Source: Siphonobacter curvatus
GTDB lineage: Bacteria; Bacteroidota; Bacteroidia; Cytophagales; Spirosomataceae
NCBI RefSeq assembly: GCF_002943425.1
Contig: NZ_PTRA01000001.1
Location: 2,790,001 to 2,854,000 of the forward strand
Length of the DNA stretch: 64,000 nucleotides
Direction: 5' to 3'
Of the stretch, positions 23,731 through 40,649 are shown piece by piece (positions within the stretch are counted from its first letter, which is position 1; the number at the start of each line of letters is the position of its first letter). The position numbers and the translations under genes are program-made. The notes under the pieces are model-generated. The model did not search any database. It saw nothing but the letters and a program-made list of their open reading frames with translations, and was not told the DNA's origin.

Positions 23731-23734
23731 CGGG

Positions 23735-24127
23735 AAGCAAGCCATCTTATCGCTTCCGGTGTAAGCAGGAAGAGGAAAGTCCGGGCAGCGTAGAGCACCG
23801 TGCTACCTAACGGGTAGGCAGTCAACTGGGGACGGTTGGCTGACAGCCAGTACCACAGAAAAAATACCGCTTTCCTTCTGGGAAAGTAAGGGTGAAAAGG
23901 TAGGGTAAGAGCCTACCGCTCAGGGGGTGACTTCTGAGGCAGGGTAAACCTCACGGGCTGAAAGACCAAATAAACCAGCGGTGTCCGCAAGGACCGAAGG
24001 GCTGCTCGTCCGGTGCTGGTGGGTAGGTCGTTAGAGACGGCAGGCGACTGCCGTTCTAGATAAATGATAAGACTTTTTACTGGTTCGCCAGTGAAAATGA
24101 CAGAACCCGGCTTATCGGCTTGTTTTT
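23735..24127 (+). ncRNA. rnpB: RNase P RNA, bacterial type A
   Basis: Catalytic RNA of ribonuclease P, which cuts the 5' leader from pre-tRNAs. Conserved blocks are all present and in order: GAGGAAAGTCCGGGC (about 23772), the ACAGAAA element (about 23855), the helix joining AGGGTAAGAGCCTACCG, AGACCAAATAAACC, GGCTGCTCGTCC, the GTGGGTAGGTCGTTAGAG stretch, CTAGATAAATGATAAG, and the 3' end ACAGAACCCGGCTTATCGG. Helix P1 pairs AAGCAAGCC (23735-23743) with GGCTTGTTT (24117-24125). Length about 393 nt is typical. It has its own promoter and lies before an OmpA-family gene. Confidence 0.96.
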
Positions 24128-24290
24128 ATTTCTATCGGCTGTTTTCAGTTTTAATTTACCGCAAAAGGTCGCCTTCGTACGCCTTTTTTGGTTTTCTTCA
24201 CGGGAAAACCTGAACTGTTTAACCACTACGCTGAAAACTTCTGAGCTAAAGCATTCTATCAACCGGAATTGCTTTCCACGTACTGTACCT

Positions 24291-38345: not shown

Positions 38346-38825
38346 TTACCCCTGCACGGGTTCGGCGAAGGGAACGGGCCTTGAAACGCTCTCTTCCAGC
38401 GATATAAACGTTTCGGTCCGCTGAATTCCGGCCACTTTCTGAATCTTATCGTGCAGAACTTCCCGCAAGTGTGTCGTATCCCGGCAAACGATTTTGGCGA
38501 AAATGGAATAAATCCCCGTCGTGTAATGAATATTGACGACTTCCGGAATCAGGGAAAGCTTTTCGGCAACTTCGGCGTACAGCGAGCTTTTATCCAGGTA
38601 AATGCCTAGGAAAGCAGAAATATCCCAGCCCAGTCGGGCATGATCAATCATGAGCGTCGAGCCTTTGACAATGCCCATTTGCTCCATTTTCCGCATACGT
38701 ACGTGTACAGTGCCACCTGAAACAAAAATTCGCTTCCCGATTTCGGTATAGGGCATAGTGGCATCCTGCATGAGCAGGCCCAGAATCTTCAGGTCTACGT
38801 TATCAATCTCGTAATTTCGATCCAT
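38346..38825 (-). CDS. Lrp/AsnC-family transcriptional regulator
   Basis: A 159-residue regulator. The N-terminal helix-turn-helix DLKILGLLMQDATMPYTEIGKRIFVSGGTVHVRMRKMEQMGIVKG is clear, and the C-terminal RAM domain (VVNIHYTTGIYSIFAKIVCRDTTHLREVLHDKIQKVAGIQRTETFISLEE) binds amino acids or related effectors and forms multimers. Its upstream region (38826-38900) is strongly AT-rich with repeated ATTAATTA elements, consistent with autoregulation by Lrp-type proteins. Targets unknown; it lies 71 bp upstream of sufB on the same strand, but after no visible terminator. Confidence 0.93.
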   Translation of the reverse strand: MDRNYEIDNVDLKILGLLMQDATMPYTEIGKRIFVSGGTVHVRMRKMEQMGIVKGSTLMIDHARLGWDISAFLGIYLDKSSLYAEVAEKLSLIPEVVNIHYTTGIYSIFAKIVCRDTTHLREVLHDKIQKVAGIQRTETFISLEESVSRPVPFAEPVQG

Positions 38826-38912: not shown

Positions 38913-38944
38913 TTGCAAAACGCTTCCTGATTACCGTACCTTTG
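38913..38944 (+). promoter_or_regulatory. Promoter of the tRNA-like RNA
   Basis: TTG at 38913-38915 and TACCTTTG at 38937-38944 give a near-ideal -33/-7 pair 24 bases apart. The start of transcription is expected around 38950, about 25 bases before the first paired base of the tRNA-like fold. Confidence 0.7.
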
Positions 38945-38974: not shown

Positions 38975-39131
38975 TGTAGGGTGATGAAATTGGCAGCCAT
39001 GCCCTCCTGTCTCGGGGGTGAAGAGTTCGGGAAAAAATCAGTATAAAGCCGGGCAAGTCCGACTGGGGTTGACCACCAAATTTTGTGCTGTATCTAACCG
39101 CTTCGTGGAGGTTCGAATCCTTCTCCTACAG
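38975..39131 (+). ncRNA. tRNA-like RNA with about 88-nt insertion
   Basis: The sequence folds like a type II (Leu/Ser-like) tRNA. Acceptor TGTAGGG (38975-38981) pairs with TCCTACA (39124-39130), seven pairs including one G-T. T8 G9 are followed by a D arm, ATG/CAT around AAATTGGCAGC with G18G19. The anticodon arm pairs CCCTC (39002-39006) with GGGGG (39014-39018) around CTGTCTC. The T arm pairs GGAGG with CCTTC around the classical TTCGAAT loop (39112-39118). G73 follows, with no CCA. Between the anticodon and T arms lie 88 nt (39019-39106) instead of at most about 20. The nominal anticodon would be GTC (Asp), on a Leu-like body with a pyrimidine at position 37, so decoding is doubtful. Confidence 0.75.
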
Positions 39132-39171
39132 CTCTTAGTTCCATTTATTCCAATAACATTTCCAGGCATTT

Positions 39172-39204
39172 TTCTCACGGATCTTTCGTCCGTAAGAATT
39201 TTTT
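39172..39204 (+). terminator. Intrinsic terminator of the tRNA-like RNA
   Basis: TTCTCACGGA pairs with TCCGTAAGAA (one mismatch) around TCTTTCG and is followed by six T residues. It makes the RNA a unit of about 255 nt from the promoter at 38913-38944. Confidence 0.8.
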
Positions 39205-39281: not shown

Positions 39282-39317
39282 ACACGCAACCTCGCTGGGG
39301 ATTGCGTGTTTTTTTTT
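39282..39317 (+). terminator. Second terminator downstream of the tRNA-like RNA
   Basis: ACACGCAA pairs with TTGCGTGT around CCTCGCTGGGGA, followed by eight further T residues. The stretch 39205-39281 between the two terminators holds no gene I can see. Confidence 0.82.
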
Positions 39318-39413
39318 AATCGAAAAATCTACGGTTTTTGGCTTTTGCCAAACGTTTACCAATGCTTTCCCTTTATTTCGCGTCTTTTATTTTTCCATTG
39401 TCCGCTTCATCTG

Positions 39414-40649
39414 ATGATTTCAAATTACGCCGTAGTACTGGGAATTCTGTGTGCCGTATTAGGACTCGTGTTTTATACTTCCACGTTTCCTTCCCTAAAA
39501 AAGTTTTACGAACTCGTCCCTCCCGTCTTACTGTGTTACTTTATTCCCGGCCTACTCACGACGGCAGGTGTATTCGCTCCGCAGGTTGTAGGTGATGAAT
39601 CAGCCATCTATCAGGTGGTTTCGCAGTATTTCCTGCCCGCCACGCTGGTCCTGTTCACGCTTTCCATGGATTTGAAAACGTTGAAACGATTGGGTTTGAA
39701 AACCGTAATGGTCTTTTTGGCGGGTATTGTGGGTGTGGTAATTGGCGGCCCCCTTGCGGTCTGGATCGTGAAACAGTTCTCTCCGGCAACCGTGGGTGGT
39801 GAAGGAGCGGATGCCGTATGGAAAGGTTTGGCCACGATTGCTGGAAGCTGGACCGGCGGCGGAGCCAATCAGGCGGCTCTGAAGGAAATATTCCGGCCCT
39901 CCGAAAAGCTGTTTTCGCAAAGCGTTGCGGTAGACATTATCATCGGTGAATTGTGGATGGCCGTGATGATCTACGGAGCGGGCAAAGCCTTGGCCATTGA
40001 CCGCCTGTTCAAAGCCGACGCTTCAGCCATCAAAGATGTACAGGTCCAACTCGAAACCTATCAGGCCCAAAACGAACGTATTCCGCAACTGCGGGATTTG
40101 CTGATGATTCTGGGCCTTGGTCTAGGGGTCACGGGACTGGCTCACGTGGTAGCGGATACCGTCGTTCCCATTCTGAAACAATACCCCGTTCTGGAACGCT
40201 TCAGTCTAACTTCCAAAGTTTTCTGGATCATATCTTTCGCTACCATCACCGGCATCCTATTGTCTTTCACCCCATTACGCCAGCTTGAACACGTAGGAGC
40301 GTCGCGGATTGGCAGCGTTTTTCTGTACATACTCATCGCTACCATTGGTCTGAAAATGGACCTTTGGGCTATCGCGGATAATCCGGGCCTGTTTGCCGTG
40401 GGTATCATCTGGATTTCCATTCACGGTCTATTCGTTCTAATAGCGGCCCGTTTCCTGAATGCTCCCTTTTTCTTCATGGCGGTGGGGTCGCAGGCGGCCA
40501 TCGGCGGACCCGCTTCGGCTCCCGTAGTGGCGGCGGCTTTTCACCCTTCCCTGGCTCCGGTAGGTGTATTGCTGGCCATTTTAGGGTACGCCATCGGTAC
40601 CTACTGTGGATATCTGACGGGATTACTGATGCAATGGGCAGCCTATTAA
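39414..40649 (+). CDS. DUF819 family membrane protein (YjcL-like)
   Basis: A 411-residue inner membrane protein with about ten to twelve hydrophobic spans. The ATG at 39414 (MISNYAVVLGILCAVLGLVFY) starts directly before the first span; the frame opening at 39306 would begin inside the upstream terminator. DUF819 features include LFTLSMDLKTLKRLG, the glycine-rich ATIAGSWTGGGANQAALKEIF, and the C-terminal GSQAAIGGPASAPVVAAAFHP, which mirrors the earlier motif and suggests two inverted halves, as in sodium-coupled carriers. The substrate of this family is not established. Confidence 0.88.
   Translation: MISNYAVVLGILCAVLGLVFYTSTFPSLKKFYELVPPVLLCYFIPGLLTTAGVFAPQVVGDESAIYQVVSQYFLPATLVLFTLSMDLKTLKRLGLKTVMVFLAGIVGVVIGGPLAVWIVKQFSPATVGGEGADAVWKGLATIAGSWTGGGANQAALKEIFRPSEKLFSQSVAVDIIIGELWMAVMIYGAGKALAIDRLFKADASAIKDVQVQLETYQAQNERIPQLRDLLMILGLGLGVTGLAHVVADTVVPILKQYPVLERFSLTSKVFWIISFATITGILLSFTPLRQLEHVGASRIGSVFLYILIATIGLKMDLWAIADNPGLFAVGIIWISIHGLFVLIAARFLNAPFFFMAVGSQAAIGGPASAPVVAAAFHPSLAPVGVLLAILGYAIGTYCGYLTGLLMQWAAY

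Follow-up and report, generated by a model that had tools for sequence, protein, structure and literature searches.

We identified by sequence comparison a tRNA-shaped RNA of a conserved family, encoded at 38975-39131 of a 64,000-nucleotide stretch of the Siphonobacter curvatus genome (the window, to which all coordinates without a contig name refer). It is likely, in our judgement, that this dedicated, non-decoding tRNA-like RNA is a carrier on which asparagine is made. Across many Bacteroidota the members of the family seem unable to read codons and look built to carry aspartate. On a more specific form of the proposal our opinion is evenly balanced: AspRS and GatCAB would dock on the giant variable arm of the RNA as an RNA-scaffolded transamidosome and make the cell's free asparagine under AsnC-type control, and the RNA would replace asparagine synthetase across much of Bacteroidota. 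No prior report of this RNA was found in the literature searched, which covered titles and abstract openings and left most subscription journals and preprints outside.

A conserved tRNA-shaped RNA with a giant variable arm

All tRNA arms lie where a preliminary description of the window had drawn them (acceptor strands 38975-38981 and 39124-39130, G73 at 39131; Table 1), and the 88 nt that it counted between the anticodon and T arms (39019-39106) and the loop CTGTCTC are likewise as stated. In the RNA this loop reads CUGUCUC (39007-39013), with the nominal anticodon GUC and U37. C74 is encoded at 39132, directly 3' of G73, and the acceptor pairs U1-A72, G2-C71 and U3-A70 are almost invariant across the family. 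The giant variable arm runs from an outer stem through an internal loop to an inner stem, with GGGGUUGACCACC at its apex. The T stem of the window RNA is uninterrupted; 29/99 distinct relatives have a pyrimidine bulge of 1-2 nt there.

Table 1. Features of the RNA gene and its surroundings in the window.
Feature	Position	Strand	Basis
AsnC-like regulator gene, divergent from the RNA	38346..38825	-	NCBIfam, Pfam and PDB matches
Promoter-like TTG-N21-TACCTTTG	38913..38944	+	sequence; motif enriched 5' of relatives
tRNA-like RNA, U1 of acceptor to discriminator G73	38975..39131	+	covariation, n = 45 sequences; covariance model R1
Acceptor stem, 5' strand UGUAGGG	38975..38981	+	pairs with 39124-39130
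D arm, Leu-like loop (AAAUUGGCAG), G18 G19 kept	38984..39000	+	alignment comparison
Anticodon arm	39002..39018	+	stem covaries
Giant variable arm	39020..39104	+	alignment, sequences, pair counts
T arm, loop UUCGAAU	39107..39123	+	sequence comparison
Terminator-like hairpin ACGGA/TCCGT and T tract	39177..39203	+	one found, chance mean 0.5; weak alone

Folding of the single sequence alone is uninformative (z = -0.21, with 78/200 shuffles folding at least equally well). The support for the structure comes from comparison instead. An alignment of the window RNA with 44 relatives (A1, 45 sequences of 108-175 nt) has near-invariant bases in the D, anticodon and T loops. Over 34 named pairs, 94.0% of the cells are paired and 23 pairs show two-sided changes, compared with 13.2 ± 1.4 in shuffles and 8-13 when the partners were slid by 1-3 columns; the compensatory changes that had been named as a check are thus present. 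For a second set of 103 distinct rows the values were 96.7% and 23 pairs, in an alignment that had been fitted to the model. Each of the seven helices shows paired changes. In the giant variable arm, the outer, middle and inner stems covary around a conserved internal loop (GAUAAA-like in the family and GAAAAA in the window, facing CUAA). The apical GGGGUUGACCACC is found in the window and many relatives and is missing from the shorter members. Long and short forms, with and without the GGGUUGACCAC tip, are neighbours in one locus (L097, L098), so the tip of the variable arm looks like an optional module.

Several readings can be judged on these observations. Chance or a pseudo-tRNA is ruled out by the covariation together with the wide spread described below. 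The suggestion of an insertion or unusual intron is disfavoured, as the extra region is a conserved, covarying variable arm in all members aligned. Allo-tRNAs have acceptor/T arms of 8+4 or 9+3 bp, and with 7+5 bp here that candidate is not supported either.

ARAGORN called no tRNA gene and no tmRNA in the window. Rfam at its gathering thresholds had no match at the RNA and only RNase P elsewhere in the window (bacterial class A RNase P RNA, 23734-24130), and with E up to 5 it had nothing credible at 38975-39131; a match to a known family, named earlier as an outcome that would refute the reading, was thus not obtained. With no Rfam or ARAGORN tmRNA match, tmRNA was set aside. Across the whole genome, the tRNA-like RNA is absent from the 46 Rfam matches. 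A separate 119-nt stretch (L155, G000:C1:2692189-2692307) gives a weak Rfam tRNA match of 40 bits; it has a Leu-like D arm and an odd anticodon region, and behind it comes what appears to be the 3' half of another tRNA.

The upstream motif of the window, TTG-N21-TACCTTTG, is one that we take to be a promoter of Bacteroidetes type. The earlier claim of a promoter gains from the relatives: TTG-N17-21-TAnnTTTG occurs within 130 nt upstream in 84/196 distinct upstream stretches taken from family members, whereas first-order random controls average about 2. The claimed downstream hairpin with its T tract is indeed present, but at a chance mean of 0.5 it is weak on its own, and six-T runs within 150 nt downstream are only modestly enriched (125/196 versus 92 in random sequence).

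Distribution across Bacteroidota

Whole members of the family score above about 85 bits with covariance model R1 and are 108-196 nt long. The window RNA scores 160 bits, being itself among the training sequences of R1. Weak matches, typically of 76-87 nt and under 70 bits, resemble ordinary tRNAs of the Leu/Ser type and were excluded as members. A DNA search of the organism's own genome returned one place only, that in the window, and a DNA search of 59 genomes gave matches in 45, the own genome included. By hand count at E ≤ 1e-20, the RNA is present in 170/241 genomes of the order (G167 lies on the line) and in 31/296 genomes sampled over the phylum, two of another class among them. A pattern scan yielded at least 120 stretches; 79 of the 80 loci listed were searched with the model, which matched all 79. 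Tandem or multi-copy arrays are common, with up to six copies among the matches listed (G068). Spirosoma, Dyadobacter, Chitinophaga, Pedobacter, Mucilaginibacter, Algoriphagus and Cyclobacterium are among the genera in the pattern-scan matches listed, as are Saprospiraceae and an Ignavibacteriales bacterium.

The anticodon loop departs from decoding tRNAs

The fold is that of a decoding tRNA, with a cloverleaf containing G18 and G19, a T loop of the TTCRANY type and a 7-bp acceptor. The anticodon loop is where the family parts from the tRNAs of its host. Position 37 in the 99 distinct rows of alignment A2 is U in 94, C in 5 and a purine in none; at position 33, 84 rows have U and 15 another base. 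The control set of 41 distinct host tRNAs has U33 in 41/41 and a purine at 37 in 41/41. Alignment A3 adds 97 distinct rows new with respect to A2 (of 105 rows), most of them from loci picked by a pattern demanding G34 U35 C36 Y37 C38 and hence biased at those bases; here position 37 is U in 83, C in 10 and G in 4 (pyrimidine in 93/97), with 84 U and 13 non-U at position 33. On these loop sequences the RNA is probably no decoder.

That it is nevertheless a real decoding tRNA, either an unusual isoacceptor for Asp or a tRNA that mistranslates GAC/GAU by inserting another residue, we regard as extremely improbable. The nominal anticodon GUC and a C74 like that of the host tRNAs speak for it. Against it stand the bases at 33 and 37 just described and the two ordinary tRNA-Asp(GTC) genes (loop CTGTCAC) that the host already has beside a broad tRNA set, which also disfavours a missing isoacceptor; moreover, if GatCAB acts on the RNA, decoding would place asparagine at Asp codons, which would be harmful.

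Signals for aspartate charging and amidation

The bases that the family keeps include Asp identity bases. U35, C36 and C38 do not vary in any of the 196 rows of A2 and A3, and G34 is found in 193 (three rows lack it), with the A3 selection bias applying to these positions. G73 is present in all rows that extend to the 3' end (98 in A2, 97 in A3), and U1-A72 in 97/97 rows of A2 and 96/97 of A3 (193/194 together). A C follows G73 in 105/105 A2 rows that reach that base, as in the host tRNAs, and CCA addition is therefore likely. Among the 41 host tRNAs, U1 occurs in tRNA-Asn and tRNA-Gln only, and host tRNA-Asn also has U1-A72.

The bacterial Asp identity set, in the available part of PMC9976931, includes G73, G34, U35, C36 and C38 and also G10 and G1-C72. 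The RNA family carries the first five and departs from the other two, having U1-A72 in place of G1-C72 and mostly A10, with G10 in a minority. The available parts of PMC9976931 and PMC4206432 describe amidotransferases as picking their substrates by the U1-A72 pair, and this GatCAB-substrate signal is present in the family. The D loop is Leu-like with extra bases, the numbering of which is ambiguous. Extra D-loop bases are signals against GatCAB.

With a loop that breaks the decoding rules family-wide while identity and amidotransferase signals are kept, the idea of a tRNA mimic used outside decoding is the one of the candidates first put forward that agrees with the data. The remark that a GTC anticodon does not fit a Leu-like D arm was also right; the mismatch would be explained if AspRS, and not the ribosome, reads GTC. 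Charging with serine, suggested by the long variable arm and G73, was set aside, since it would leave the conserved anticodon loop to be accounted for separately.

GatB accompanies the RNA

We profiled 80 genomes, hand-picked across families and cut from 171, 40 with the RNA (best R1 E < 1e-20) and 40 without it (best R1 E > 1e-14). They were chosen prior to seeing any gene profile. Genomes in between (G047, G170, G190, G248 and G258 among them) were left out, as was G049, in which two contig ends each carry part of the copy; absence of the RNA was judged by the model with stricter filters, which miss copies cut by a contig end such as that one.

GatB was over its cut-off in 40/40 genomes with the RNA and 25/40 without it. 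AsnRS was over its cut-off in 78/80, including all those with the RNA, and GlnRS in 44/80, all 44 of which also have AsnRS. GatB is found in 36/36 genomes that lack GlnRS, and such genomes need it for tRNA-Gln. Where GlnRS and AsnRS occur together (44 genomes), GatB is found in 25/25 cases when the RNA is present versus 4/19 when it is not (Fisher 1.7e-8, kinship ignored), and the contrast recurs within three families (f14, f23 and f24). GatB is thus present exactly where GlnRS is absent or the RNA is present, with four exceptions in 80, namely RNA-less genomes with GlnRS that keep GatB (G092, of the window's own family, G297, G477 and G440). The 25 RNA-bearing genomes with GlnRS and AsnRS therefore do not need GatCAB for charging tRNA-Gln or tRNA-Asn. 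In one RNA-less genome with GlnRS (G119), the gatB-like sequence found is limited to short N-terminal fragments that score well below the cut-off (contig C99:8068-8395).

Enzymes for making asparagine were surveyed in the same sample. The E. coli type of AsnB (at least 66% identity to the query) was found in 0/40 genomes with the RNA and 10/40 without. An AsnB-like protein exceeded the TIGR01536 cut-off in 34/40 RNA-bearing genomes, mostly as frames of about 600-690 aa; because of these paralogues TIGR01536 is a poor test of asparagine synthetase, and the protein query was used instead. AsnA was over its cut-off in 4/80 genomes, one of them with the RNA (G064), and an RNA-bearing genome (G045) lies just below it. 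The window's own genome lacks AsnA, and none of its proteins passes the cut-off for AsnB.

An AsnC-like gene (at least 54% identity) occurs in 39/40 genomes with the RNA, G041 being the one where no match was found, and in 8/40 without. Each of these eight has another plausible route to asparagine: five have AsnB (G224, G255, G269, G385 and G051), three have an archaeal-type asparagine synthetase encoded divergently from asnC (G224, G189 and G264), and G101 has a GatB-AspRS fusion. The fusion is a 1126-residue frame (contig C6, L335) joining GatB to an AspRS-like protein, in a genome without an RNA match, and is possibly a one-chain transamidosome.

The retention of GatCAB by many Bacteroidota that have GlnRS and AsnRS was pointed out in 2014 (PMC4206432, in the part available). 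Alperstein et al. suggested there that AspRS charges tRNA-Asn in bacteria, Bacteroidetes included, that have AsnRS, GlnRS and GatCAB but lack an asparagine synthetase. On this account GatCAB is retained because ordinary tRNA-Asn receives Asp from a non-discriminating AspRS, and it has nothing to do with the RNA; beyond the proposal itself, as given in that part of PMC4206432, the U1-A72 of host tRNA-Asn is in its favour. It leaves unexplained both the close tracking of GatB and the RNA in genomes with GlnRS and the presence of U1-A72 and Asp signals on the RNA.

The AspRS sequences also bear on this account. Bacterial AspRS enzymes that are non-discriminating have His at position 30/31. In the 29 RNA-bearing genomes examined of the 40, this residue is K in 22, L in 3, F in 4 and the expected His in none, which disfavours the usual tRNA-Asn route; His was found in G268, G277 and the G101 fusion. 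No statement of the His rule was found in the literature searched. Overall we consider it very unlikely that the tRNA-Asn route accounts for the retained GatCAB.

An AsnC-like regulator is divergent from the RNA

The gene upstream of the RNA encodes a protein with Pfam AsnC ligand-binding and HTH domains. Its best NCBIfam family is AsnC at 159.7 bits, below the cut-off of 227 (the next family scores 76.6), and its best PDB match is E. coli AsnC (2cg4). An Lrp/AsnC-type regulator lies divergently and directly upstream of the RNA in 63/77 loci, and the RNA occurs without one in 14/77. In the pattern-scan loci the divergent AsnC is present in 51/79 and absent from 28/79, four of which have too little sequence. 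A search for an AsnC operator found AT-rich blocks upstream of the promoter and no discriminating motif; AAATATT occurs in 78/123 loci with adjacent AsnC versus 16/36 without. Downstream of the RNA is a gene for a DUF819 membrane protein (39306-40649 in the window), whose cluster follows the RNA in 18/77 loci. The protein may be a transporter with a part in the pathway, or the arrangement may be mere local synteny.

In E. coli K-12 the layout is the same, with asnC divergent from asnA. Three RNA-less genomes (G224, G189 and G264) have an archaeal-type asparagine synthetase divergent from their asnC-like gene; the family NF005054 is over its cut-off for the one tested (L179, in G224), and the synthetases of the other two (L181 and L182) are 69-70% identical to it. 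These make up 3/9 of the RNA-less asnC loci examined, and no asparagine synthetase was recognised in the remaining six, nor in nine loci from RNA-bearing genomes with asnC away from the RNA. No AsnC homologue was seen beside asnA or asnB in 17 loci from RNA-less and a few RNA-bearing genomes (about 3 kb per side, less at contig ends).

This neighbourhood bears on two other uses of a charged or chargeable RNA. In one, the charged RNA is an aminoacyl donor that modifies envelope, lipid or peptide with Asp or Asn and is not a source of free asparagine. A non-decoding loop with charging signals suits a donor, and the link with GatCAB suits Asn as the donated residue. The use of tRNAs outside translation has known precedent, which also favours it. 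The loci point elsewhere: the AsnC-like gene is the only neighbour common to most of them (63/77), no transferase was recognised among the neighbour clusters listed, most of which carry no annotation, and the slot adjacent to asnC holds an asparagine synthetase in E. coli and in the three RNA-less relatives, which points to asparagine itself. We consider a donor role unlikely.

The other use is regulatory, with a tRNA mimic that senses Asp, Asn or charging and acts on AsnC, AspRS or an mRNA through its GUCUC loop. The adjacent regulator (63/77 loci) is what one would expect of this, and the near-invariant loop bases could serve as a pairing seed. It sits poorly with the tie to GatB in genomes with GlnRS, with the retention of a full tRNA elbow and C74, and with arrays of up to six copies among the matches listed (G068), which suggest a need for mass and not for control; we find it distinctly unlikely.

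A proposed route to asparagine

In the carrier proposal, the RNA would mature like a tRNA through RNase P, 3' trimming and CCA addition. The ordinary AspRS would charge it with Asp through G34, U35, C36, C38 and G73, as its identity elements suggest, and GatCAB, recruited through U1-A72, would amidate Asp to Asn on the RNA, a step to which U1-A72 and the co-occurrence with GatB point. The altered anticodon loop, perhaps with the variable arm and the T-stem bulge, may keep the product off the ribosome, and the asparagine would then be released and used by AsnRS or elsewhere. From its position and family, the divergent AsnC-like regulator is predicted to tune the supply to asparagine. The RNA family, its structure, identity signals, synteny and phylogenetic profile are established here; the weak points of the carrier view are release, flux, the departures at G10 and G1-C72, and the AsnB-like proteins in 34/40 genomes with the RNA. 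Spontaneous hydrolysis seems too slow for a bulk supply of asparagine.

The proposed chemistry, Asp on a U1-A72 RNA followed by amidation by GatCAB, is that of tRNA-dependent asparagine synthesis in Deinococcus, Thermus, Bdellovibrio and S. aureus, where a non-discriminating AspRS and GatCAB act on tRNA-Asn. Here, however, Asp would be loaded onto a separate RNA that does not decode, carries Asp signals and has a giant variable arm. No relaxed specificity would be required of AspRS, and the product would be free Asn and not Asn-tRNA-Asn. As in the E. coli asnC-asnA divergon, an AsnC-type regulator would stand divergent from an asparagine-making partner, but the partner is an RNA gene and not a synthetase gene. 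The RNA resembles class II tRNAs such as tRNA-Leu in having a Leu-like D arm, a long variable arm, a 7-bp acceptor and the T loop; unlike tRNA-Leu, it has a variable region some 40 to 130 nt long (88 in the window RNA) that contains an internal loop and often an apical element, as well as a GUC loop and G73, and it is missed by ARAGORN. Staphylococcal peptidoglycan uses a non-proteogenic tRNA-Gly, which is likewise the product of a tRNA gene with a dedicated job outside translation; those tRNAs are near-normal, whereas the RNA here has been extensively remodelled and is tied to the synthesis of an amino acid.

The work adds a large covarying RNA family that was missed here by ARAGORN and Rfam. 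If the carrier proposal is true, it would explain why many Bacteroidota retain GatCAB beside GlnRS and AsnRS, and RNA-dependent amino-acid synthesis would be testable in named isolates of Spirosoma, Dyadobacter, Pedobacter, Chitinophaga and Mucilaginibacter. It would also mean that a tRNA can be remade to serve metabolism as a dedicated cofactor, in this case for amino-acid synthesis, and this would be the first RNA that is solely a biosynthetic carrier.
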